Positions 2,421 through 32,212 of a DNA stretch of 64,000 nucleotides are shown here, one piece after another. This DNA is from Halorussus marinus (lineage in GTDB: Archaea > Halobacteriota > Halobacteria > Halobacteriales > Haladaptataceae). Under the pieces are notes generated by a model that saw only the letters and a list, made by a program, of their open reading frames with translations, had not been told where the DNA came from and did no database searches. The stretch lies in assembly GCF_004765795.1 (NCBI RefSeq), contig NZ_SBIV01000002.1, positions 186,001 to 250,000 on the forward strand, in the 5' to 3' direction. Both the position numbers and the translations under genes were made by a program. The first letter of the stretch is position 1. Every line of letters begins with the position of its first letter.

Positions 2421-2933
2421 ATGAGCGTTCTCGACAGGCTACGATCGACGCCGGGCGGGCGATCCGTCGAGTGGCTCGCGCTGGCGGCGAGCGTCCTCGT
2501 CTGCGAGCTCGCGGGCGTCGTGCCCTCGCTCCTGACCGCCGACGACGTGGCGACGTGGTACCCGACGCTCGCCAAGCCGGCGTTCACACCGCCGAGCTGG
2601 GTGTTCGGCCCGGTGTGGACCGTCCTCTACCTCCTGATGGGCGTGGCGCTGTATCTGGCGTGGCGTGGCGGGACGGGTCGGCGCCGCCGGATCGCGCTCG
2701 GGGCGTTCGCCGTCCAGTTGGTCCTCAACGCGGCGTGGACGCTCACCTTCTTCGGCGCCCGCGAACTCCTCGGCGGGCTGGTCGTCATCGTCGCGCTCGT
2801 TGCCACCATCCTCGCGACGATGGCGGCGTTCGCCCGGATCGACCGCCGGGCCGCGGCGCTCCTGGCTCCGTACCTGCTGTGGGTGGGGTACGCGACCGCG
2901 CTGAACTACGAAATCTGGCGGCTGAACGGCTGA
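2421..2933 (+). CDS. tspO: TspO/MBR family membrane protein
   Basis: This 170-residue protein has about five hydrophobic helices and family landmarks: WYPTLAKPAFTPPSWVFGPVW near residues 46-66, LNAAWT near 100, and a C-terminal NYEIWRLN. TspO proteins bind tetrapyrroles and related ligands and are implicated in porphyrin and stress responses; the archaeal role is not established. ATG 2421 lies about 25-30 bp after a T-rich element at 2389-2396, consistent with a leaderless transcript. The neighbours do not suggest a pathway. The family call is secure, the ligand is not. Confidence 0.92.
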   Translation: MSVLDRLRSTPGGRSVEWLALAASVLVCELAGVVPSLLTADDVATWYPTLAKPAFTPPSWVFGPVWTVLYLLMGVALYLAWRGGTGRRRRIALGAFAVQLVLNAAWTLTFFGARELLGGLVVIVALVATILATMAAFARIDRRAAALLAPYLLWVGYATALNYEIWRLNG

Positions 2934-3074
2934 CTCGGTGGTGCCGTCGCGACCGAGTATCGGGCCGTTACTCGCGAGCAGGCCGTCCCAACCCTCGCCT
3001 GATTCGGGCTTGACCGCGGTTACCGCGAGTTTGCGCGCCGCATAACAAAGGACGGCTGTGGCGTCGGCTGGGTC

Positions 3075-3473
3075 GTGTCGAACAGTTCGGTCTCGGAGAT
3101 CGGTGTGGCCGGCGGTCGCTACGGCGTGGGCGCGAGCCGCGCCGCGCTACTGGTGGTGTTGATCGCCGGCAAGGCGCTCGACGCGGTCAGCACGGTGACG
3201 GTCCTGTCACTGCGCGACGACGTCTACGAGTCGATGTACGTCACCCGGACGCTGATGCAGGAACTCGGGATGGTGCCCGGGGTGCTCGTCACCGTCGTCA
3301 TCGCGGTCGGGGGCGTGGCGCTACTGGCCGAGAGCGCCGAGGTGGTGGCTCGAATCGTCCCCGAGGGGTGGGCCCCCGACGACTACCCCGCGGCGTTCCG
3401 GGTCGTGACCTACGCCTCGGCGGGAGTGTGGTACGGCTTTCTCGGAGTCCACAACTTCATGTTGCTGTTCTGA
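3075..3473 (+). CDS. Small integral membrane protein, unknown function
   Basis: The 132-residue protein has three likely membrane helices, around residues 22-43, 65-86 and 108-131. The last ends almost at the C-terminus with NFMLLF. There is no recognisable motif or cofactor site. Start is GTG 3075, about 30 bp after the TATA-like ATAACAA at 3042-3048, so the mRNA is probably leaderless. The gene stands alone between tspO and the oppositely oriented tRNA-Ser. It looks like one of the conserved but unnamed haloarchaeal membrane proteins. Codon use matches its neighbours, which supports a real gene. Confidence 0.75.
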   Translation: MSNSSVSEIGVAGGRYGVGASRAALLVVLIAGKALDAVSTVTVLSLRDDVYESMYVTRTLMQELGMVPGVLVTVVIAVGGVALLAESAEVVARIVPEGWAPDDYPAAFRVVTYASAGVWYGFLGVHNFMLLF

Positions 3474-3508
3474 ACAGCCGCGGCTCGCCGGTGTGGGAAC
3501 GAAGAAGC

Positions 3509-3592
3509 GCCGAGGAGGAGATTTGAACTCCTGTGTCCGTGAGGACAGTTGCTCTCGAAGCAACCGCCTTGGCCGGGCTAGGCTACCTCGGC
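3509..3592 (-). tRNA. tRNA-Ser (anticodon CGA)
   Basis: On the minus strand the acceptor GCCGAGG pairs with CCTCGGC at the 3' end. The anticodon arm is GTTGC-TTCGAGA-GCAAC, which puts CGA at positions 34-36 and reads UCG serine codons. A long variable arm (about 15 nt), the class II hallmark of tRNA-Ser, precedes the T arm with TTCAAAT. No CCA is encoded, as is usual in haloarchaea. No intron is visible. The length is 84 nt. Confidence 0.95.
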
Positions 3593-3692
3593 TCGTCTCG
3601 ACGTACCGCCGTCTCGGACTTAGTGGTTTCGATTCCGCGCCCATCCTTCAACCGACCGTCACATTCAAGCGAGTGGCACGCCGGGGTAGCGT

Positions 3693-4652
<960 letters not shown>

Positions 4653-4714
4653 GACCGTTTCACTTTCACCGCGGTTGGCTCGCCTTTATTTCGGAGCGCC
4701 GGACACTGACGGGT

Positions 4715-4903
4715 ATGGACGACGACCGCGAGACGGATTCCGAGACGCGAGAGACCGACGACACCGCGCGACCCGACCGCGAGGACGAAGGCGGCGAGGA
4801 GAGCGCCGACGCCGACCTCCGCGACCTCGATCCGAACGCCGAGGACGCGGCTCGCCGGGTCGAACGCCAGCTCCGACGGGTTCGGCGCGAAACGCGGCCT
4901 TAG
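4715..4903 (+). CDS. Small, very acidic protein of 62 residues
   Basis: The product is almost all Asp, Glu and Arg. An acidic disordered first half (to about residue 40) is followed by an amphipathic stretch rich in Arg (VERQLRRVRRETR). There is no Cys and no membrane segment. ATG 4715 lies about 27 bp after a TTTATT box at 4684-4689, a good leaderless arrangement, which argues for a real gene despite the small size. Its stop codon (4901-4903) overlaps the stop of the opposing operon by four bases. The role is unknown; its position between moxR and the DUF58 operon hints at the same module. Confidence 0.6.
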   Translation: MDDDRETDSETRETDDTARPDREDEGGEESADADLRDLDPNAEDAARRVERQLRRVRRETRP

Positions 4904-5400
4904 GCCCGAAGCGCCGAGGTCAGCGCGACCGCCCCGAGCAACAGGAACACCAGCGCCGTCACGGGCTGGCCGCCCGACGACCCGAGGTAGATCGCGTACC
5001 CCAGTCCGCCGGCGCCCGCGCCGACGACCGTGCTGGCGGCGGCGTGGGTCGCCTCCAGTTGGGCGGTGTCGGCCGCCCGGCCCAGTTGCTCGCCGACGTT
5101 GATCGCCTGCTCGCCGAAGTCCCACGCGAGCACCGCGGCGATGACACCCGGCAACAGCAAGAACGGCGCCCCGGTCAGGACGCCGCCGGCGAGCGCGCCG
5201 ACGAGCAGGCCGCTCGCGCCCAGCCCGACAGCGCGCCGCCAGCCCCGGGCGAGACCGATCGCGACGAGGACGAACCCGGCCGCGCCGAACCCGAGCCCGA
5301 TCGTCGAGGTGAGCGCGCTCGCCCCCGCCGAGATCGCCGCCGCCGAAGCCGCCAGCGCCGACGACAGCACCGCCGGCGACCGGTCGATCTCGCGGGTCAC
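4900..5400 (-). CDS. Polytopic membrane protein of the DUF58/MoxR module
   Basis: The 166-residue protein is strongly hydrophobic, with about four or five helices between residues 12 and 160, and loops that contain WDFGEQAINVGEQLGR. It starts at GTG 5400, which overlaps the TGA of the DUF58 gene as GTGA, so it is probably translated by coupling. It is the last gene of a four-gene minus-strand operon. It probably belongs to one of the uncharacterised haloarchaeal DUF families found beside DUF58 (DUF7519 comes to mind, unverified). No enzymatic motif is visible; a membrane scaffold role is inferred from context. Confidence 0.75.
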   Translation of the reverse strand: MTREIDRSPAVLSSALAASAAAISAGASALTSTIGLGFGAAGFVLVAIGLARGWRRAVGLGASGLLVGALAGGVLTGAPFLLLPGVIAAVLAWDFGEQAINVGEQLGRAADTAQLEATHAAASTVVGAGAGGLGYAIYLGSSGGQPVTALVFLLLGAVALTSALRA

Positions 5401-6692
5401 GCGGTCCACCTCCGAGCCGACCGTTCGAGCGCTACGCCGAGTCGGTCGTCGAGCGACCAGTCGATGGCGCGGATTCCGGCCTCCCGGAGCCCCGTGAGCC
5501 GGTGGGCGCGCCGGGTCCGGGCGAGGCGCTGGCCCGGCGTCTCGGTCGCGGTGGGGTCGGGGCTGAGGACGGTCACGAGGTGGCCCTCGGCGTCGAGCCG
5601 GCGGGCGACCTCGCCGGCGAAGTCGTCGCACAGCGGCGTGACGAACAGGACCTGCGAGGAGGGCGGGAGCCGCTTGCGGAGCCACTTCAGCCGGCTCGTC
5701 GGGTAGAAGGTGCCGCCGGCGGGCACCGGCCCGAACGCCGGGTGGGTCGCCAGCAGGTCCCGGGCCCGGGCCTGATGATCGTGGCCCGCGCCCGGCGCGA
5801 GCCAGCACGTCTCGGGGCCGAACGACGCCAGCCCCGCCCGGTTGCCCGCGTCGAGGAGCTTGGTCAGCGCCTTGCCGGCGGCGTCGACGCCGTACTGGAC
5901 CGCGTTCCGGTCGTCGCCCGGCGCCGAGCAGTAGGCCTCCTCGCGGGCGTCGACGACCACCACCACGCTGGCGGCCCGTTCCTCCCGGAAGTCGATCGTC
6001 GTGAGATCGCCCGTCCGTGCGAGCCGGTTCCAGTCGACCCGCGAGAGGGGGTCGCCCCGGCGGTACTCCCGGGTGGCGTGGAACTCGACGCCGGAGCCGC
6101 CCGAGTCGGTGGTGACCCGACCGGTGTACTGGGTGGTCTGGGCCCGCAGGGGCACGTCGACCGTGGTGCCGAGCTTCGGCACGCAGGTGAGCGTGGTCTC
6201 GCACTCGATTTGGGTCTCGACCTCGGTCGCCCCGCTGAAGTCCCGGGCGACCACCGAGACGGGGTCGAAGGCGTGGTCGCCGCGTTCGGCGGTCACGGCG
6301 TAGGTGAGCCGGGCGGTCTTGCCGGGGCGGAGCGCGGTCCCGAGCCGGGGCGAGCCGTCGACGACCCCGAGCGCGTCCGGAACGCCGTCGACCAGCCGGA
6401 GGTCCGGGAGCGTCGCGTCGCCGACGTTCTCGACGGTCAGGTGCACCGTCACCTCCTCGCCCGGCAGGGGTTGGTCGTCGCTCACCGCGCGGGTCACCTC
6501 GAGGGCGACCGCCGGCGGGCTCGCGGTCCGGGCGTAGGCCGCGAACGCGACCCCGACCACGCCCGACAGCAGGACGACGGGACTGCTGAACAGCACGCCC
6601 AGCCCGCCCGCCAGAAACGCGACCGCACTGACGCCGCGCCAGCGGTTCGTCGTCCGGATCGTCCGGCTCCGGTCGTCGTCGCGGTCGCTCAT
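5397..6692 (-). CDS. DUF58 domain protein, MoxR partner
   Basis: The 431-residue protein has two N-terminal membrane helices (about 22-60), a beta-rich region with paired strands like a CARDB/immunoglobulin fold (about 70-195), the DUF58 signature REYRRGDPLSRVDWNRLART (near 206-226) and a C-terminal von Willebrand A-like domain starting VVVVDAREEAY. DUF58 proteins work with MoxR ATPases at the membrane; the precise activity is unknown. ATG 6692 overlaps the upstream stop as ATGA. The vWA metal site lacks a classical DxSxS, as is common in this family. Confidence 0.9.
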   Translation of the reverse strand: MSDRDDDRSRTIRTTNRWRGVSAVAFLAGGLGVLFSSPVVLLSGVVGVAFAAYARTASPPAVALEVTRAVSDDQPLPGEEVTVHLTVENVGDATLPDLRLVDGVPDALGVVDGSPRLGTALRPGKTARLTYAVTAERGDHAFDPVSVVARDFSGATEVETQIECETTLTCVPKLGTTVDVPLRAQTTQYTGRVTTDSGGSGVEFHATREYRRGDPLSRVDWNRLARTGDLTTIDFREERAASVVVVVDAREEAYCSAPGDDRNAVQYGVDAAGKALTKLLDAGNRAGLASFGPETCWLAPGAGHDHQARARDLLATHPAFGPVPAGGTFYPTSRLKWLRKRLPPSSQVLFVTPLCDDFAGEVARRLDAEGHLVTVLSPDPTATETPGQRLARTRRAHRLTGLREAGIRAIDWSLDDRLGVALERSARRWTA

Positions 6693-7285
6693 CGCGACCC
6701 CTCCCGCGCGTCGGCGTCGTCGCCGACCCCGGCCACCCGAGCGACGGCGTCGGCGGTGCGACGCATCTGGTGTTGGCGAAGCGACTCCGAGCCGGCGACG
6801 AACCGGAGCTTCGACCGGAACGGCAGGCGGGGTCCGTCCGGGCCGGCGAGAAACGCCGCGGCGTACCGGTCGTCGGTCCACTCGCCGGCCTCGATCCGTT
6901 CGCGGGCGGTCGCCGGCGAGCAGTTGCGGGCGTGGGCGACCGCCGTCACCGCGGTCTCGGTGAGATGCTCGCGGATGTCCTCTCGCTCGCGGACCGTGGT
7001 CCGGCGGGCGCCCGCCCCGAGCCCCGCCACGCGGTCGTCGAACGCCTCGCCCGGGGTCGGCACGGTCTCTACCGTCTCGACGTCGGGCGTCGCCGCGCCG
7101 CGGATCTCGGTCGATCGGCGGCGCTGAACGACCCGGACCGCCTGCACGACCGCAAGGAGTCCGACCACGGTGACCGCCACGTAGTCGGCGCCGACGGCGG
7201 CCGCGAGCCCCGGCTGGACGACCAGCAGGACGCCGAGTCCGACCGCCCCCACGCCGACCGCGGTGAGAATCGGGTGATCGGTCAT
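6689..7285 (-). CDS. Two-helix membrane protein between DUF58 and DUF4129
   Basis: The 198-residue product has two closely spaced helices (about 6-50), then a soluble, Arg- and Glu-rich region of about 140 residues containing ARNCSPATARERIEAGEWTDD. ATG 7285 overlaps the DUF4129 stop, and its own stop overlaps the DUF58 start, both as ATGA, so the set is translationally coupled. Similar two-helix proteins recur at this place in haloarchaeal DUF58 operons; I recall the label DUF7269 but cannot check it. Function unknown. Confidence 0.75.
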   Translation of the reverse strand: MTDHPILTAVGVGAVGLGVLLVVQPGLAAAVGADYVAVTVVGLLAVVQAVRVVQRRRSTEIRGAATPDVETVETVPTPGEAFDDRVAGLGAGARRTTVREREDIREHLTETAVTAVAHARNCSPATARERIEAGEWTDDRYAAAFLAGPDGPRLPFRSKLRFVAGSESLRQHQMRRTADAVARVAGVGDDADAREGSR

Positions 7286-8232
7286 CGACCGGGCCCTCCG
7301 TCGTCGGCGTACTCCTCGACGCTTCGGAGCGCGTCCAGCGCCCGGCGCTCGCGGTCGTCGGTCGGCGACTCGCCACCGTACCGGACTTCCTCGAACAGCG
7401 CGGTGAGTTCCTCTACGTCCTCCCGATCGATGCCCGCCTCGACCGCGGCCGCCGCGAACTCGGCGGGCGTGCTGGAGTCGGGGTTGGCCACGTCGAGATG
7501 GCTGGTCATCTCGCGCCACGCCCGGTAGACCTCGTTGTCGACGTCGGTCGCGTCCTCGATGCGGTCGGCGGCCGCGCCGGCCGCCCGGCCCACCGCGGCG
7601 ACGTCCTCTCGGGTCTCGGGGCCGGCGACCGACTCGTCGGGGTCGGCGTCGTCGCCGCTCGACGAGACGACCAGTAGCGCGACCGCTCCCGCGAGCGCGA
7701 GGCCGAGTCCGACCAGAAGTAACACCGAGGGGTCGGTCAGAGTCGTCCCCGACCCCGACCCCGGCACGCCGCTCCCGCCGCCGGGCAACGAGATGTTACC
7801 GGCCCCGCCCGGGAGCAGGCTCTCGGACTCGGAAGTCGACGGCGAGAGACACGCGGTGAGCAACGCGTGGGCCAGCACGAGCGGGATTCCGACCGGAAGG
7901 GCGTATGCCACGACCCCGATCCCGCCGAGCCGACGGTACGCGAGATACCCCCCGAGCGCGAACGCCGCGACGATCAGCCCGACCGCCCACGGTTCGACCA
8001 ACATGGGGTAACACGGGAAGTCGAACCCGAGCCCCGCGCCCGCCGATCCGTTCCCGAGGCTGAACTCGGGGTCGGCGCCGCCGGGCGACCCCGCGTCCGA
8101 CGCCGGCGATCCGACGCCGAACCCGCCGCCGGCGTCGGTCCGAACCGCCGAGTTCAGCGTCGCGGCCGCCACGCCGATAGCGAGGACACACAACAGCGCC
8201 AGGACGACGGGCCGTACGGTATCGCTGTCCAC
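7282..8232 (-). CDS. DUF4129 domain membrane protein, first gene of the DUF58 operon
   Basis: The 316-residue protein has an N-terminal helix (8-26), a Gly/Ser/Pro-rich outer segment (about 30-65), further membrane helices (about 73-95, 105-125, 162-185), and a C-terminal DUF4129 domain (about 240-305) with VYRAWREMTSHLDV and a following STPAEFAAAA. In DUF4129 proteins this cytoplasmic domain is common beside transglutaminase-like, DUF58 and MoxR proteins. Start is GTG 8232. It is the promoter-proximal gene, divergent from the pilus-type operon across 8233-8407. It probably forms a membrane complex with the three downstream products. Confidence 0.85.
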   Translation of the reverse strand: MDSDTVRPVVLALLCVLAIGVAAATLNSAVRTDAGGGFGVGSPASDAGSPGGADPEFSLGNGSAGAGLGFDFPCYPMLVEPWAVGLIVAAFALGGYLAYRRLGGIGVVAYALPVGIPLVLAHALLTACLSPSTSESESLLPGGAGNISLPGGGSGVPGSGSGTTLTDPSVLLLVGLGLALAGAVALLVVSSSGDDADPDESVAGPETREDVAAVGRAAGAAADRIEDATDVDNEVYRAWREMTSHLDVANPDSSTPAEFAAAAVEAGIDREDVEELTALFEEVRYGGESPTDDRERRALDALRSVEEYADDGGPGR

Positions 8233-8377
8233 GGCAGAAGGTAGCGCGATTGATACCTTAGCGTTTGGGGATTCGTCCCGGGATCGAACGCCGGCGATAC
8301 CCGACGGCGTTCGAGTCGAGCGGGGTCGGGTCGCCGGTCGCCCACCCAGAGTTATCCACCGTCTCCGTTTCTAAAAA

Positions 8378-8385
8378 TTTAAATT
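8378..8385 (+). promoter_or_regulatory. TATA box of the PilB-like operon
   Basis: TTTAAATT is centred about 27 bp upstream of ATG 8408, inside an AT-rich stretch (8371-8407) that stands out from the flanking GC-rich sequence. This spacing predicts a leaderless mRNA and decides in favour of 8408 rather than the in-frame ATG at 8384, which overlaps the box. Confidence 0.7.
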
Positions 8386-8407
8386 GTATAAGTATCAGAA
8401 TTATCCT

Positions 8408-10633
8408 ATGGCAGGGCTATCGCCGTCTCCGGAAGCGCCGGGATCGGCTCCCGGCAGCCCCGAACCGCCGACGGTTCCGGCGCCGAAGCCGCCGGACGAC
8501 CCCGACGCGTGGTACGCGCCGACCGTCCGCGACCAGTACGAGCTCCACCCCGACGTGATCGCCACCATCCGCGAGGCCGGCGAGGGCTTCGACTACCGCG
8601 TGCGAGAGCCGAGCCTCTCGCCGGCCGGCGCCGACGCCCTCTCCCGGGTCGAGGAGCACTTCTCGGACGCGAACCTCCGGCGGCCGGTGACCCGGGAGGG
8701 CGCGACCGAGCGGATGGACGCGGGCCTCGACCCGAAGTACCGCCGGATCGTCGACCGGCTCACAGATCTGCCGCCCGAGGCCCGCCGGCGGGTCGAGTAC
8801 CGAGCGCTCCGAGACCTGCGGTGTCTGGGCGAGCTCACTCCGCTCGCGCTCGATTCCGGCATCGAGGTCGCCGACACCGCCGGCGACCGCCTCGTGGTCC
8901 ACACCGACGACTACGCGCCCGCCGACACCGCCCTGCCCGCCGACGCCGACTTCCTGAGCCGGTTCGCCAGCGAGCGCGTCGAGACCCACGCGGTGGGGTT
9001 CCGGAACTTCCGGGTGCCGGTCGTGATCTACCGCGAACACCTGCTGGCGAACGACGCCTTCACCACGAAGTACGCGGTCCAAGAGCCCGATCTCCTGCCC
9101 GGCGACGAGGAACTGATACGCGAGTGCAAAGACCGCATCTGGGAGACCAACGTCGACGGCGTGGTCGAAGACCGGGCGGCGTTCGTGCGCGAGCGCGCCC
9201 GGACCTTCCTCTCGCGGCGGCTCACCGCCCGCAACACCCGAGCGTGGCTCGACGCCGCGGCCTACCGCACGCGGGCCGCCCTCGCGGAGTACGATCTGGC
9301 GGTGCCGCCGGTGAACCACCGCTTTTCGACCGATCGGCTCTCGGACCTCGTCTACTACGTGATGCGGGACTTCGTTGGCCACGGCAAGCTCACGATCCCG
9401 ATCCGGGACGACCTGCTCGAAGACATCGAGGCCAACCGCGTGGGCGAACGCATCAAGGTCGTCCCGCGGGGCCGCGAGATCGGCCACGGCGAGCGCATCC
9501 CGACCAACCTCTCGTTCGACGACGAGTCGGCGTTCGTCAACGTCGTCACCCAGATGGCCGCCGCCGACGGCACCGAGCTCAACGCCTCGAACCCGAGCGC
9601 GAAGGTGAACCTCCAGCCGGAGGGCGTCCCCGACGGGACGACCATCCGGTGTGCGGTCGCGCTCGGAGTCATCAGCGAGGACGGCCCACACATCTCGATC
9701 CGCAAGCAGGCGCCCGAGGCGATGACGCCCGTCGACCTGCTCGAATCCGAGAGCCTCTCGACGGAGATCGTGACCCTGCTGTGGCAGGCCTACGAGCACC
9801 ACGGCGTCGTCCTCTTCTCGGGGCCGACCGGGGCCGGCAAGACGACGCTGATGAACGCCCACATGCCGTTCGTGCCCTACCGCGACCGCCCGATCTCGAT
9901 CGACGAGGGCTCCCGGGAAGTCCGGCTCCCCCACGAGACGAGCGTCTCGCTCACCACGCGCGACCACGAGAGCGACTACAAGCGCGTGACGATGGCGGAT
10001 CTGATGACCGAGTGCAACTACCTGAATCCGGACGTGGAGGTGATCGCGGAGATCAACACGCCAGCGAGCTTCCGGACGTTCGCCGAGAGCCTCAACACCG
10101 GCCACGGCATCATCGGCACAACCCACGCCGAGGACGTCGAGAAGCTCGTCAATCGGGTGGTCGAGCAGGGCCTGCCGCCCTACCTCCTCCGGGAGCTCGA
10201 TCTGGTCGTGTTCCCTCGGCGCGTCGACGGCGAGCGATACGTCGGCGAGGTCGTCGAACTCCTCTCTGAGTCGGCGTTCGAGGCACTTGACGCCGACCGG
10301 TCGCGGTGCGGCGCGGTCCACAAGGACGACGCCACCGTCTACTGGAACACGGTCGCGTACCGGGACACCGACGGGCGATACCGGTTCGCGTACGACCACC
10401 CCCAGCTCGGCGACGACGAGCGCGACCGGCGCCACCGGTTTTTCCACCGTCTCGCGGCCCGCGGCGACCGCACCGTCGAGGACGTCGAGGCGGAGTTTCA
10501 CCGGAAACACCGGTACGTCCAGTACCTCCAGCGGGAGGGAATGGACGACTTCGAGGCGCTGTTCGGGTTCCTCTCGGACCTCCAGACCAACGAGGCCGCG
10601 ACCGTCGAGCGCGCCAACCGGGGGGCGCCGTGA
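8408..10633 (+). CDS. PilB/GspE-like secretion ATPase of an archaeal type IV pilus system
   Basis: The 741-residue protein powers assembly of a pilus-like structure by hexameric ATP hydrolysis at the cytoplasmic membrane. The C-terminal half has Walker A GPTGAGKTT (about 472-480), an acidic Walker B region VEVIAEINT (about 544) and the His box GTTHAEDVEKL (about 571). The long N-terminal half begins with a Pro-rich disordered tail and carries the N-terminal domains of the family. The length is typical for haloarchaeal PilB. The next gene overlaps by four bases and encodes the platform protein. Haloarchaea have several PilB/PilC pairs; I cannot say which this is. Confidence 0.92.
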   Translation: MAGLSPSPEAPGSAPGSPEPPTVPAPKPPDDPDAWYAPTVRDQYELHPDVIATIREAGEGFDYRVREPSLSPAGADALSRVEEHFSDANLRRPVTREGATERMDAGLDPKYRRIVDRLTDLPPEARRRVEYRALRDLRCLGELTPLALDSGIEVADTAGDRLVVHTDDYAPADTALPADADFLSRFASERVETHAVGFRNFRVPVVIYREHLLANDAFTTKYAVQEPDLLPGDEELIRECKDRIWETNVDGVVEDRAAFVRERARTFLSRRLTARNTRAWLDAAAYRTRAALAEYDLAVPPVNHRFSTDRLSDLVYYVMRDFVGHGKLTIPIRDDLLEDIEANRVGERIKVVPRGREIGHGERIPTNLSFDDESAFVNVVTQMAAADGTELNASNPSAKVNLQPEGVPDGTTIRCAVALGVISEDGPHISIRKQAPEAMTPVDLLESESLSTEIVTLLWQAYEHHGVVLFSGPTGAGKTTLMNAHMPFVPYRDRPISIDEGSREVRLPHETSVSLTTRDHESDYKRVTMADLMTECNYLNPDVEVIAEINTPASFRTFAESLNTGHGIIGTTHAEDVEKLVNRVVEQGLPPYLLRELDLVVFPRRVDGERYVGEVVELLSESAFEALDADRSRCGAVHKDDATVYWNTVAYRDTDGRYRFAYDHPQLGDDERDRRHRFFHRLAARGDRTVEDVEAEFHRKHRYVQYLQREGMDDFEALFGFLSDLQTNEAATVERANRGAP

Positions 10634-12540
10634 GCGTCGCCGAGACGAGCGCCGTCGACGACCGCGGGTCGCGGTCGCTCTCGGTCCTCGATCGGGCGCT
10701 CTACGCGTTGTTCTCCCGGCACGCCGATTCGGCCCGCCACGACGCCGACCGCAAGCGCTACCGGGCGACCGGCGTGACCGCGAGCTTCGACGTCTACCTC
10801 GCGCGGACGTACGGCCTCTCGTGGCTCGCGTTCGGGCTGGCCGGGGTGTGGGCGTTCGGGGCGGTCGTGGCTCTGCCCGACGCGAGCGTCGGGGCGGTCG
10901 CGTCGTTCGTCCGGCGGGGCGTACCCGGCCTCGACGCCGTCTCCGGCCCGTCGGTCTCGGGGACGACTACGGCGCTCCTCGTCGGCGCCGCCGCGGGGCT
11001 GGCGGCCAAGCGCGCGGTCGTCGCGCTCGGGGGACGCTACCTCAAGTGGGCCGCCGACGCCCGCCGGTCGAACATCGACCGGACGCTCCCCGGCGCGGTC
11101 CGGTATCTCCACGCGCTGTCGTCGGGAAGCGACGACGGCGCGGCGATGCTCCGGAAAGTCGCCGACCGCGAGGCCGCGTACGGCGAGACCGCGGTCGCGT
11201 TCCGGAAGGCGCTGAACAAAGCGGCCCTGAGCGGGAGCCTCGGGGAGGGGCTAGGCGTCGTCGCCCGGGACACCCCCTCGCGGGACGCGCTGGCGCCGTT
11301 CCTCGTGAAGTTCCGCGAGCACGCCGAACAGGGCCCCGACGCGTTGGCCCAGTACCTCCAGATGGAGAGCCGCATGCTGAGCCACCGCCAGTCGAAGACT
11401 CGCGAGCAGGCGGGCGACTTCCTCGAACTCGTCGCGGAGATGTTCATCGTCCTGCTGGTGATGCCCGCACTGTTGGTCATCGTCCTGACCGTGATGAGCG
11501 TGCTCGCGCCGGGGCTGAGCGAACCCGTTGCGACCCCGTTCGGGACGACCTCGACCCGCGCGGTGCTGGTGTACGGGAGCGGCGCGTTCATCCTCGTCGT
11601 CGGGGGCGGCGCGGCCGCGATGGTCGCGCGGCTCCGGCCCCCGGACCAGTCGGGCCGGAGCTACGACCGACCCGCGGGCGCGCTTGCGACCGCCGCGAGC
11701 GCGCTCCGGAACCCGGCCAGCGCGGTCGTCGCGGCCGCGCCGTTCGCGGCCGGCGTCGTCGCGATCCTCCACGCCACCGGGGCCAAGCCGGTCGACGTGG
11801 CACTGTTGGGCTACGTCGCGTTCGCGGTGCCGGTCGGGCTCGTCGCGCTCCGCCGAGCCGGCCTCGACGACGCGAAAGACCGCGAGATCAAGGACTTCGT
11901 CCACGCGGTCTCGGGCCACGTCAGCCTCGGCCGGCCGTTCTCGGCGGCGGTCGAACGGGTCGCCAGCGACGTCGATCTGGGTGCGCTCGACCCCGACGTC
12001 GCCGATCTGGCGTTCAACGCGAACCTGACGACCCGCGAGCAGAACCTCCAGTCGGCGTCGCTCGCGCGGTTCGTCGACCGGGTCGGGACGCCGCTGGCCG
12101 ACCAGAGCATCGGCCTCGTGACGGGCGCGCTCGACGCCGGCGGCGACGCCGAGGCCGTCTTCGAGACCCTGCAGGTCGAGATCGGACGGCTCTACCACGA
12201 GCGCAAGGCGCTTCGCGCGAACATGCTCGTCTACGTCGCGGTCGGGTGGACCACCGGCATGCTGGTCGTGCTGATCATGGTCGCGGTCGACGTCTACGTG
12301 CTCGACAGTTTCGCTCAGTTGTCGTCGCTCTCGACCACCGACGCAGGGATGGCGCTCGATCCCGACGCGGTCGAGCCCGCCCGCGACAGACACCGGTTCT
12401 ACGTCGTCACGCAGGCCACGATGCTCGCCTGCGGGTGGTTCGCGGGCTACGCGAGCAGGGGTCCGTACGAGGCGCTGTTGCACTCGGGCGCGCTGGTCGG
12501 GGTCGCGTACTTCGTGTTCGCGGGGGTGGGAATGGTATGA
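10630..12540 (+). CDS. PilC/TadC-like pilus platform membrane protein
   Basis: The 636-residue protein carries two type II secretion F (T2SF) domains, each followed by membrane helices. The first includes RTLPGAVRYLHALSSGSDDG (near 150-170); the second includes REIKDFVHAVSGHVSLGRPF (near 418-437). There are about eight to nine helices in total. It anchors the PilB-like ATPase in the membrane and is thought to guide pilin extraction. GTG 10630 overlaps the previous stop as GTGA, and its own stop overlaps the next start as ATGA. The paired domain architecture agrees with archaeal PilC/FlaJ proteins. Confidence 0.9.
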   Translation: MSVAETSAVDDRGSRSLSVLDRALYALFSRHADSARHDADRKRYRATGVTASFDVYLARTYGLSWLAFGLAGVWAFGAVVALPDASVGAVASFVRRGVPGLDAVSGPSVSGTTTALLVGAAAGLAAKRAVVALGGRYLKWAADARRSNIDRTLPGAVRYLHALSSGSDDGAAMLRKVADREAAYGETAVAFRKALNKAALSGSLGEGLGVVARDTPSRDALAPFLVKFREHAEQGPDALAQYLQMESRMLSHRQSKTREQAGDFLELVAEMFIVLLVMPALLVIVLTVMSVLAPGLSEPVATPFGTTSTRAVLVYGSGAFILVVGGGAAAMVARLRPPDQSGRSYDRPAGALATAASALRNPASAVVAAAPFAAGVVAILHATGAKPVDVALLGYVAFAVPVGLVALRRAGLDDAKDREIKDFVHAVSGHVSLGRPFSAAVERVASDVDLGALDPDVADLAFNANLTTREQNLQSASLARFVDRVGTPLADQSIGLVTGALDAGGDAEAVFETLQVEIGRLYHERKALRANMLVYVAVGWTTGMLVVLIMVAVDVYVLDSFAQLSSLSTTDAGMALDPDAVEPARDRHRFYVVTQATMLACGWFAGYASRGPYEALLHSGALVGVAYFVFAGVGMV

Positions 12541-13283
12541 GTCGGCGCCCGAACTCGCGCGTCCGCGCCCAGTCGAGCGTCGTCGGCGTCGCGGTCCTGC
12601 TCGGAGTGGTCGTCGTCTCGCTCGGGACGCTGACCGCGAGCGTCGGCACGGTCGTCGAGGAGAACGCCGCCACCGCCGACGCGACCCGGGTGGCGACCGA
12701 CCTCGACGCCGCGCTCGCGCCCGTCGAGGCGACCGGCGTCCGCCGCGGGCGGGTGTCGTTCACCGAGGGGCGACTGGAGACCGTCGACCGGAACCTCCGG
12801 GTGTTGAACGAGTCGGGGGTCGTTCGCACCGTCGGCGTCGACGCGCTCGTGTTCACCGCGGGCGACCGGCGGGTCGCCGCCCTCGCCGGCGCCGTCGTCC
12901 GCGGGACCGGCGCGAACGCCCGCCTCCGGACGCCGCCGCCCGTGACGGCGTCCCGCGGAGACAGGGGCCCCGAAGGTGTGCTCGTCGTCGGCGCGCCGGC
13001 GCTGAACGGCTCGGGGTCGATCGCGGCGACCGGCGGCGGATCGGCGCTCCTCCGCACCGACGTGAGCCACGCGCGGACCGACCTCGGAACCGGCTCCTAC
13101 CGAGTGGCGATCGAGACCGCGACGCCGGCGGCGTGGACCCGCCACTTCCGCGAGCGGAACGCGACGGTGACCACGCGGCGGTTCGCGGGCGACGACGAGC
13201 CGAGCGTGGTCGCCCGATTCCCCGGCGAGCGCGTCGCGTACCTCGTGGTCCACGACATGCGACTGGAGGTCCGCGGTGCGTAA
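12537..13283 (+). CDS. Pilin-like protein 1 of the PilB/PilC operon
   Basis: The 248-residue protein has a class III signal peptide: a basic N-terminus ending RVRAQSSVVGVAVLLG, where cleavage between Ala and Gln is expected, then a hydrophobic helix to about residue 35. The rest is a beta-rich outer domain with Gly, Thr and Val and a few Asn-X-Ser/Thr sites. It starts at ATG 12537 (ATGA overlap) and its stop overlaps the next gene by eight bases. It resembles the largest of a set of uncharacterised haloarchaeal pilin-like families (DUF7289 by memory). A minor pilin or tip role is inferred. Confidence 0.8.
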   Translation: MSRRPNSRVRAQSSVVGVAVLLGVVVVSLGTLTASVGTVVEENAATADATRVATDLDAALAPVEATGVRRGRVSFTEGRLETVDRNLRVLNESGVVRTVGVDALVFTAGDRRVAALAGAVVRGTGANARLRTPPPVTASRGDRGPEGVLVVGAPALNGSGSIAATGGGSALLRTDVSHARTDLGTGSYRVAIETATPAAWTRHFRERNATVTTRRFAGDDEPSVVARFPGERVAYLVVHDMRLEVRGA

Positions 13284-13749
13284 CCCGCGACCCGACCGCC
13301 GGGACAGGGGCGTCTCGCCGGTCGTCGGGAAGGCCCTCGAAGCGAGCATCGTCGTCCTCTACGTCTCGTTGCTCGGGGCGACGCTGTACGGCGGGCTGGT
13401 GCCCGAGTACCGGACCGCCGCGGGCGCGGAGGTCGGCGATCGGGTCCTCTCCCAGTCGACCCAGCGCGTCCAGCAGGCGGTTCCCCCGACGGCGCGGGCC
13501 GTCGAGACACGGGTGCGGGTGGCACTGCCCGCGACGATCCGCGGGCGGGGGTACTCGATCCGGGCCCAGAACCGGACGCTCGTCCTCGACCACCCGCGCG
13601 ACGGGGTCGGCGGCCGGGCGCGGCTCGCGCTCCCGGCGGCCGTCGAGTCGGTGACCGGCAACTGGTCGAGCGGCGAGCCGGCGGTCGTCGCGGTCCGGGG
13701 CGACGCCGACGGACTGACCGTCGCGCTCGAATCGGGGGCGGCCGAATGA
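13276..13749 (+). CDS. Pilin-like protein 2 of the PilB/PilC operon
   Basis: The 157-residue protein begins with a basic segment ending DRRDRGVSPVVGKALE, which resembles the RG/VSPV processing site of haloarchaeal adhesion pilins, followed by a helix to about residue 43 (ASIVVLYVSLLGATLYGG). The outer domain is about 110 residues, beta-rich, with no Cys. GTG 13276 lies inside the end of the preceding gene. The N-terminal helix carries Lys and Glu, unlike PilA helices, so it may be a specialised minor pilin. It probably matches a haloarchaeal family of unknown function (DUF7266 by memory). Confidence 0.8.
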   Translation: MRNPRPDRRDRGVSPVVGKALEASIVVLYVSLLGATLYGGLVPEYRTAAGAEVGDRVLSQSTQRVQQAVPPTARAVETRVRVALPATIRGRGYSIRAQNRTLVLDHPRDGVGGRARLALPAAVESVTGNWSSGEPAVVAVRGDADGLTVALESGAAE

Positions 13750-14423
13750 GTCGCGCCCAGATGAACCTCCCGGCGCTGGCGGTGGCCCTGCTCGTCGTGA
13801 CGACGGTCTCGATCCTCGGATTCGGGATGGCCGACCGGGCGTTCGTCGCCGCCGACCGCGACCCGGGCGAGCGGCGGGTCGCGGTCGCGCTCTCCGAGCG
13901 GTTGGTCGGCGCCGAGACGCGGGTGACCGCCCGTGCCAACGTCCTCGACGCCGACGAACTCGGCGCGCTGAACGGGAGTCGGCTCCGGACGCTGTTCCCG
14001 GTCGCCGACGGTCGGGACGTTCGGCTCCGGATCGGCGACCGAACCGTGGCGATCGCGGGCGACCCCGCCGGCGGGACGACGATCCAGCGTGTAGTGCTGG
14101 TCGAGGAGCGCGAAGCGGCGACGCTCCACCCCGACCTCTCGGCGGCCGAACCGACGGTGACCCTCCCGCGGCGCTCGCCGAACGCCACCATCGAGCTCTC
14201 GCCGCCGGCAGGGACGACCGTCGAGACCGTCCGGGCGAACGACCGGGTCGTCCTCCGGAACGGGTCGGGGCTTGCGGGGCGGTTCGACGTTCGGCTGTCG
14301 GCGTTCGAGACCACGACCCTCTCGTTCGAGACCGACGGTCCGCTGCCGACCGAGAGTCTCGAAGTGACCTACGCGCCGGCCGAGACGCGCAAAGAACTCC
14401 TGGCGGTGACCGTCGATGGGTGA
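13746..14423 (+). CDS. Pilin-like protein 3 of the PilB/PilC operon
   Basis: The 225-residue protein has a very short leader, MSRA, before QMNLPALAVALLVV, which fits a class III signal peptide cleaved before Gln5. The hydrophobic helix ends near residue 27. The outer part (about 30-225) is beta-rich with several Asn-X-Ser/Thr sites. Start ATG 13746 overlaps the previous stop as ATGA. Codon use matches the operon. No catalytic motif. Its role is inferred only from the signal peptide and from coupling to PilB and PilC. Confidence 0.8.
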   Translation: MSRAQMNLPALAVALLVVTTVSILGFGMADRAFVAADRDPGERRVAVALSERLVGAETRVTARANVLDADELGALNGSRLRTLFPVADGRDVRLRIGDRTVAIAGDPAGGTTIQRVVLVEEREAATLHPDLSAAEPTVTLPRRSPNATIELSPPAGTTVETVRANDRVVLRNGSGLAGRFDVRLSAFETTTLSFETDGPLPTESLEVTYAPAETRKELLAVTVDG

Positions 14424-14832
14424 CCGAGGGCGACGCGGACAGCTCTCGCTGTCGGTCGTCGAGGCCGGGGTCGGCGCGATCCTGATCCTCGCGGTCGCGA
14501 TGGGGTTCGCACTCGGCGGTCCGCCGCCCGACGATCGGCGCGCGCAACTCGACGCGTACGCCGCCGACGCCGCGACCGTCCTCGCGGGAGAACCGCCCCG
14601 CCATCGGGGCGCGACCAGACTCGCGGAGGTAGTCCGGACGCGGGCGGCGTTCGACCGCGAGCGCGCCGCCCTCGAACGCCGGGTCGCCCGAATTCTCCCC
14701 GACAACCTCCTCTTCCGGGTGACTACCCCATACGGATCGGTCGGCTTCCGCAAGCCAGCCGGGATCGCGGTCGGGTCGGCGACCGTGACGACCGGCGGCG
14801 GCGACGTGAGAATCAGGGTGTGGTACGCGTGA
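14416..14832 (+). CDS. Pilin-like protein 4 of the PilB/PilC operon
   Basis: The 138-residue product starts MGDRGRRGQLSLSVVEAGVG, with RRG/Q as a canonical class III processing site (cleavage between Gly8 and Gln9). A Glu lies eight residues into the mature helix, near the conserved Glu5 of bacterial pilins. The helix ends by about residue 35 and a mixed soluble domain follows. ATG 14416 lies eight bases before the end of the upstream gene. It is the smallest protein of the set. Function unknown; a minor pilin is inferred. Confidence 0.8.
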   Translation: MGDRGRRGQLSLSVVEAGVGAILILAVAMGFALGGPPPDDRRAQLDAYAADAATVLAGEPPRHRGATRLAEVVRTRAAFDRERAALERRVARILPDNLLFRVTTPYGSVGFRKPAGIAVGSATVTTGGGDVRIRVWYA

Positions 14833-15362
14833 GCCGACCGGTAGCGCCGGGCGAGCGCGCCCAACTCGTCCTCGTCTCGGCGGCGGTGGTCGCCGTCGCG
14901 CTCGCGCCGGTGGTGATGGCGTACGTCCAGTTGGGCTACCACGCCGACGTGACCGCGAGCGAGGGGTACGACGCGCCCGCCGAGAACGCCGACCGGCTCC
15001 TGACCCGGGCGGTCCACGACGCCGCGGCCGGAACGACCGGCGCGGCGTGGGACGAGCGCGACGACGCGGTGGCCACGATGCGGTCGTCGGTGGCGCCCCG
15101 ACTCGACGCGCTCCGGTCCTCGCGGGTCGAGTCGGGGACCGTCTATCAGGTCGCGTACAACGAGTCGGCGGCCGACGCGTGGCGCCGCGCGAACTGCCCC
15201 GGCGGACCCGACCGGCAGTTCGGCGACTGCGAGGCGATCGACGGCGTCGTCGTTCAGGAGCGGGCGGGCGAGACCCACGTCCTCGCCGCGGCGTTCGACG
15301 TGCGGATAACGACCGACGGCGCGGAGTGGTCGCTGACGACCGTCGTCCAGAGCGTCGGCTGA
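14829..15362 (+). CDS. Pilin-like protein 5, last gene of the PilB/PilC operon
   Basis: The 177-residue protein starts at GTG 14829 (GTGA overlap). Its leader ends GERAQLVLVSAAVV, again with an Ala/Gln class III site, followed by a helix to about residue 35. The outer domain contains two Cys (ANCPGG and GDCEA, about ten residues apart) that could form a disulfide outside the cell; the other four pilin-like proteins of the operon have none. It closes an unbroken run of seven overlapping genes from 8408. No prepilin peptidase is encoded nearby, so processing would rely on an enzyme encoded elsewhere. Confidence 0.8.
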   Translation: MSRPVAPGERAQLVLVSAAVVAVALAPVVMAYVQLGYHADVTASEGYDAPAENADRLLTRAVHDAAAGTTGAAWDERDDAVATMRSSVAPRLDALRSSRVESGTVYQVAYNESAADAWRRANCPGGPDRQFGDCEAIDGVVVQERAGETHVLAAAFDVRITTDGAEWSLTTVVQSVG

Positions 15363-31858: not shown

Positions 31859-32212
31859 CTAGCTATCGAATGTGTAGACGGTCGCGTCGTTTACGTCATC
31901 ACCGTAGGCAACAACTGAATTGGCGCTGGTATCACAATCTAAGACCTCTCCAACACTTTCAACACCGCTCGACTCATCTTCATTCGAGCACCGGATACCT
32001 TGGGTATTGGGTCCTAGTGAGTTGAGAGTGACTGCGTTATCATTCGCAGCCTCCGAAACTCCTGCAGATGCATTTTGTTGAACTTGTTCGCCGAGCCCGA
32101 GTACGAAGGTGCCGATGACGGCGGCCAGAATCACCGTGATGGCGACCATCAGGATGACCCCGATCACCGGGCTCACCGCCTCGTCGTCCGTGAGTAGTGT
32201 TTTGAAGTTCAT
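31859..32212 (-). CDS. pilA: Type IV adhesion pilin (PilA family)
   Basis: The 117-residue protein has the class III signal peptide and the conserved H-domain of haloarchaeal adhesion pilins: DDEA before [20 protein letters not shown], cleaved before Val13, with a helix to about residue 41. The short outer domain (about 75 residues) has two Cys (GIRCSN, VLDCDT) that could form a disulfide. Such pilins mediate surface attachment and biofilm formation. The gene is isolated from any pilB/pilC pair. Its GC content is clearly lower than neighbouring genes. Promoter: TATAAAA-like sequence at about 32265-32271, leaving a leader of about 27 nt. Confidence 0.92.

Follow-up and report, generated by a model that had tools for sequence, protein, structure and literature searches.

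An operon of pilB, pilC and five prepilin genes in Halorussus marinus and its relation to the pilB1-C1 operon of H. volcanii

Described pilB-pilC systems of haloarchaea

Deletion of pilB1-C1 in Haloferax volcanii causes an intermediate adhesion defect (PMC6491452). PilB1-C1 fails to restore adhesion of the pilB3-C3 mutant, which lacks the PilA-pilus machinery, and the authors of that study could not exclude that PilB1-C1 was poorly expressed in this rescue test; PilB3-C3 does restore adhesion of the pilB1-C1 mutant (PMC6491452). One of the primers listed by Legerme and Pohlschroder lies at the HVO_0620 (pilB1) start codon, and pilC1 ends with GVGLI and overlaps the pilin gene HVO_0618 by four bases, ATGA (PMC6491452).

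Makarova et al. (2016) describe a halobacteria-specific pilus, subclade 4C, with an ATPase and a TadC-type platform (Figure 4C of PMC4858521). Its pilins number five: three that are common to the PilB4 system, arCOG02911, and a predicted in-operon major pilin, arCOG06296 (PMC4858521). The subclade 4C placement and the arCOG numbers used below are taken from that paper (PMC4858521). In Halobacterium salinarum R1, Losensky et al. describe pil-2 (OE1347R-OE1332R), seven cotranscribed ORFs spanning 6.9 kb and found in haloarchaea only, of which just three products are called prepilins; pilC2 has an in-frame stop (PMC4292770).

Layout and signal sites of the Halorussus operon

We analyzed a 64,000-nucleotide stretch of Halorussus marinus DNA, here called the window. 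It holds an operon of seven genes, preceded by a TATA-box-like element:

8378..8384, + strand: TTTAAAT, TATA-box-like element, centered ~27 nt upstream of the pilB ATG (read from the sequence)
8408..10633, + strand: pilB, VirB11/TadA-type assembly ATPase of 741 aa, P-loop near residue 464 (PF00437, 5e-20)
10630..12540, + strand: pilC, platform membrane protein of 636 aa with two T2SSF stretches (PF00482, 1.4e-13)
12537..13283, + strand: p1, DUF7289 prepilin, VRA/QSSVVG (PF23960, 3.9e-56; the slash marks the predicted cleavage site, here and below)
13276..13749, + strand, GTG start: p2, DUF7266 prepilin, DRG/VSPVVG (PF23928, 1.1e-56)
13746..14423, + strand: p3, DUF7263 prepilin, SRA/QMNLPAL (PF23924, 5.3e-83)
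14416..14832, + strand: p4, DUF7262 prepilin, RRG/QLSLSVVEAG (PF23923, 1.2e-57)
14829..15362, + strand: p5, DUF7261 prepilin, ERA/QLVLVSA (PF23922, 1.1e-68)

A preliminary description of this DNA had placed seven overlapping genes at 8408-15362; these coordinates are correct, and from pilB to p5 successive genes overlap by 4, 4, 8, 4, 8, and 4 bases. The mechanically called ORF of p5 begins at 14820, and the GTG at 14829, which gives the 4-base overlap, is the most likely start. The spacing of TTTAAAT fits haloarchaeal expectation and hence suggests a leaderless transcript that would start at or near 8408. Upstream and divergent, on the minus strand at 4900-8232, lies a cluster encoding DUF4129, DUF7269, and DUF58 proteins.

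The PF00437 and PF00482 matches, both above cut-off, lie in adjoining, overlapping genes and identify a VirB11-type ATPase and a TadC-type platform. The best PDB relatives of PilB are an archaeal type II secretion-type ATPase and CpaF, and PilC has about eight hydrophobic windows. Whereas the bacterial Tad pilus has separate platform proteins, TadB and TadC, the operon encodes one PilC with two T2SSF stretches. The window PilB shares 22 to 31% identity with the genome's four other pilus/archaellum ATPases. A domain search found neither PilB3_N nor PilB3_C in the window PilB; both are present in a PilB3 gene on contig C1. An N-terminal cysteine cluster is likewise absent from the window PilB. 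This feature is frequent but not universal in subclade 4F, and on this basis we ruled out a subclade 4F system. A further pilus ATPase, on contig C12 (40000-55000), has four cysteines within its first 48 residues and lies near a DUF7285 class III protein, a locus resembling subclade 4F.

Each of p1 to p5 has a short basic leader, R[A/G] followed by Q or V, and a single hydrophobic helix. All five passed a simple class III test, compared with 7 of 202 six-frame ORFs of at least 130 codons in the window. In alignments of about 53 orthologues per protein, only A or G occurs at position −1. At position −2, p2 and p3 invariably have R, a single p4 (with K) and a single p5 depart from R, and 46 of 53 p1 have R. 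At position +1, p3, p4, and p5 invariably have Q, as do 51 of 53 p1, and p2 has V, L, M, A, or F. The class III start that had been noticed on all five small proteins is thus conserved in all or nearly all orthologues. A PibD gene (Peptidase_A24 plus Arc_PepC_II) is present elsewhere in the genome. We conclude that, by their signal sites, p1 to p5 are putative prepilin-peptidase substrates, which PibD would be predicted to cleave.

Distribution and match to pilB1-C1

When 195 genomes of the order were sampled, 77 had DUF7263. Of 14 named controls, only H. volcanii had it, and this species also carries DUF7266. Fifty named loci with DUF7263 come from Halorussus, Haladaptatus, Haloarcula, Halobacterium, Natronomonas, Halogranum, Halorientalis, and others. 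At every complete locus (~50 loci, many genera) the order pilB-pilC-DUF7289-DUF7266-DUF7263-DUF7262-DUF7261 is constant. Relatives of p2 occur across the phylum. By identity, the window genome appears to fall near the Halorussus loci.

Of 171 genomes of the family, four contain the annealing part of the HVO_0620 primer, ATGCCTACCCAAGGC; these four belong to a single genus, presumably Haloferax. Each has ATGCCTACCCAAGGC exactly at the start of a pilB gene, with pilC and then the same set of five pilin genes behind it. Because this primer site marks the beginning of pilB in an operon with the same seven genes, we match the window operon to pilB1-C1 and to the subclade 4C pilus. No difference in layout from the H. 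volcanii operon (HVO_0620, HVO_0619, and HVO_0618 onward) was detected; the window pilC ends with GVGMV plus ATGA, compared with GVGLI plus ATGA in H. volcanii, and the pilins of the four primer-carrying genomes rank among the most divergent orthologues. Judged by sequence, the window operon is the orthologue of the HVO_0620-0619 operon, a link that rests on the primer site as read in four genomes of one genus and on the published HVO_0620-0618 details. It is probably also the counterpart of H. salinarum pil-2, as its seven ORFs and span of 6.955 kb, compared with 6.9 kb, suggest. Like the subclade 4C model, the operon has five pilins, several of them from families shared with a PilB4-type system. 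A new kind of surface structure was ruled out, since this operon has been published before and is widespread. We conclude that this operon type is already known in Halobacteriales.

Several other members of Halorussus have the operon interrupted by unrelated genes (loci L086, L037 at 2645-5888, L038, and L039), unlike the window. At locus L086 (4480-5790 and 10075-11187), an alpha/beta hydrolase gene lies between p4 and p5, and genes for small membrane proteins lie between pilB and pilC. In Haloarcula argentinensis (L054), pilB and pilC are partial. In Haloarcula salina (L055), pilB, pilC, p1, and p2 were not found upstream of p3, and an ORF with a HINT/intein-like start (7415-8644) occupies that place. 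The Haloarcula loci are examples of recurrent breakage of the pilus locus.

Such broken relatives (the pilB/pilC insertions in several Halorussus and the partial genes of H. argentinensis), together with the stop in H. salinarum pilC2 (PMC4292770), could be taken to indicate that the operon is silent or decaying and has no function in this strain. However, all seven window genes are intact and tightly overlapping, with median identities to their orthologues of 50 to 67%, and we regard decay as extremely improbable.

A set of five dissimilar pilin-like proteins that lacks a canonical major pilin also resembles the minor pseudopilins of type II secretion systems (PMC10191384), so that the operon might make a short pseudopilus or type II secretion-like device rather than a long surface filament. 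However, no secretin gene or gene for an obvious secreted partner lies within the operon, deletion of pilB1-C1 lowers surface adhesion in H. volcanii (PMC6491452), and the literature treats the related systems of archaea as pili. We consider a secretion-like device very unlikely.

The five pilins and the main subunit

The proteins p1 to p5 are full-length members of DUF7289, DUF7266, DUF7263, DUF7262, and DUF7261, respectively, far above the Pfam cut-offs. NCBIfam has no family for any of them, and a literature search did not find these DUF names in use. Their outer domains had been described as having no obvious similarity; profile comparison agrees, with every pair below 3% probability, and we found them mutually unrelated. 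A drifted iterative model hinted that p4 and p5 are recent duplicates. Separate family alignments, in which the N termini matched at 46.5% probability and the outer domains were unlike, led us to reject this. Two cysteines of p5 are kept in 98% and 100% of orthologues, consistent with a disulfide in a predicted extracellular domain.

Compatibility with a pilin fold was checked by structure prediction for p2 and p3, each modeled singly. The AlphaFold2 model of mature p2 has a kinked N-terminal helix and seven strands in a beta-rich outer domain (pLDDT, 90.7), and that of mature p3 likewise combines a kinked N-terminal helix with a beta-rich ectodomain (pLDDT, 90.4). Both models appear compatible with a pilin-like fold. 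Structure searches of the PDB with the two models gave no match at an E value of ≤0.001, and hence we claim no fold name for p2 or p3. Sequence searches of the PDB with the p2 and p3 profiles found no relatives.

By comparison with the PilA adhesion pilins of the genus, the canonical invariant PilA H-domain was found in none of p1 to p5, as the preliminary description had stated; to this we add that the N termini of p1 and p2 are related to PilA. In HHalign, p1 and p2 matched the PilA N terminus at 88.6% and 82.3% probability, respectively, compared with less than 1% for p3 to p5. The Pilin_N matches of p1 and p2 fall under the cut-off (p2 E value, 0.006 to 0.009). The operon thus shares PilB/PilC assembly and a PilA-like start of two pilins with the PilA/PilB3-C3 adhesion pilus. 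It differs from it in the missing H-domain and PilB3 N- and C-terminal domains, and the PilB3 locus is without pilin genes. A canonical PilA operon was ruled out on the basis of the missing domains. One adhesion pilin of canonical PilA type, invariant H-domain included, is encoded at 31859-32212 of the window, on the minus strand, 16.5 kb downstream of the operon.

The genome has a second pilin-bearing operon, of the PilB4 type (contig C1, 8000-24000), which encodes a DUF7288, a DUF7261-like, a DUF7266, and two DUF7289 pilins. As in the window operon, pilins of the DUF7289, DUF7266, and DUF7261 types adjoin pilB/pilC. The PilB4-type operon differs in its 1,160-aa ATPase with extra domains, its DUF7288 pilin, and a second, longer DUF7289 protein, and no DUF7262 or DUF7263 match was found in it. 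It contains a full-length paralogue of p2 (E value, 1.8e-24), one distant paralogue of p5 (5.6e-9), and two paralogues of p1; paralogues of this kind would be expected of the signature minor pilin, arCOG02911.

The operon had been proposed to be either a separate surface structure or a set of minor pilins without its own major pilin. The first proposal is supported, in that the operon is a type IV pilus locus of its own, driven by PilBC; a minor-only set is less likely, given the PilA-related N termini of p1 and p2 and the p2 paralogue. All five proteins could nonetheless be minor pilins of a priming or tip complex, with the bulk of the filament formed by a stand-alone major pilin, PilA or another, encoded elsewhere. 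The lack of a canonical H-domain in the operon would fit this, as would the five Pilin_N genes that lie above cut-off elsewhere in the genome, one of them the 31859-32212 gene, and PilB paralogues are thought to share sets of pilins (PMC4858521). However, PilB1-C1 of H. volcanii did not rescue the pilB3-C3 mutant and so apparently does not build PilA pili; the PilA-like N termini of p1 and p2 and the occurrence of a p2 paralogue in a second pilin operon also argue against a major pilin supplied in trans. We consider this alternative unlikely. Somewhat more doubtful is a heteropolymer or tip machine of five distinct pilins, with no single classical PilA subunit and with p3 to p5 folds that are absent from solved structures.

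We favor a major pilin encoded in the operon, most likely p2, because of the PilA-like N terminus of p2, its paralogue in the PilB4-type operon, the failed pilB3-C3 rescue, and the model of Makarova et al. Several points count against this reading: p2 lacks the canonical H-domain and falls under the Pilin_N cut-off, its model matches no solved fold at an E value of ≤0.001, and the N terminus of p1 is equally PilA-like. To our knowledge, no filament made by a pilB1-C1-type operon has been imaged.

From the gene set, gene order, conservation, signal sites, orthology, and p2 and p3 models computed here, we infer processing, filament formation, and the identity of the major pilin as follows. PibD would cut the five prepilins behind R[A/G], and the PilB ATPase and PilC platform would then draw the processed pilins from the membrane into a thin pilus. 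The main subunit of the filament would most likely be p2 (DUF7266), with p1 (DUF7289) as a minor pilin and p3 to p5 as minor pilins that may initiate, cap, or decorate it. The pilus may help cells stick to surfaces, as the H. volcanii pilB1-C1 phenotype suggests by analogy. We conclude that the operon is probably the Halorussus copy of the subclade 4C/pilB1-C1 pilus operon, encoding a thin adhesion pilus.

The window thus adds a clean and intact copy of a pilus operon that is conserved in haloarchaea and encodes five pilins from Pfam families of unknown function. The same genome offers an internal comparison in its PilB4-type operon, with three pilin families in common. Working out what each pilin does would reveal how assembly of archaeal type IV pili begins and how the filaments are capped.
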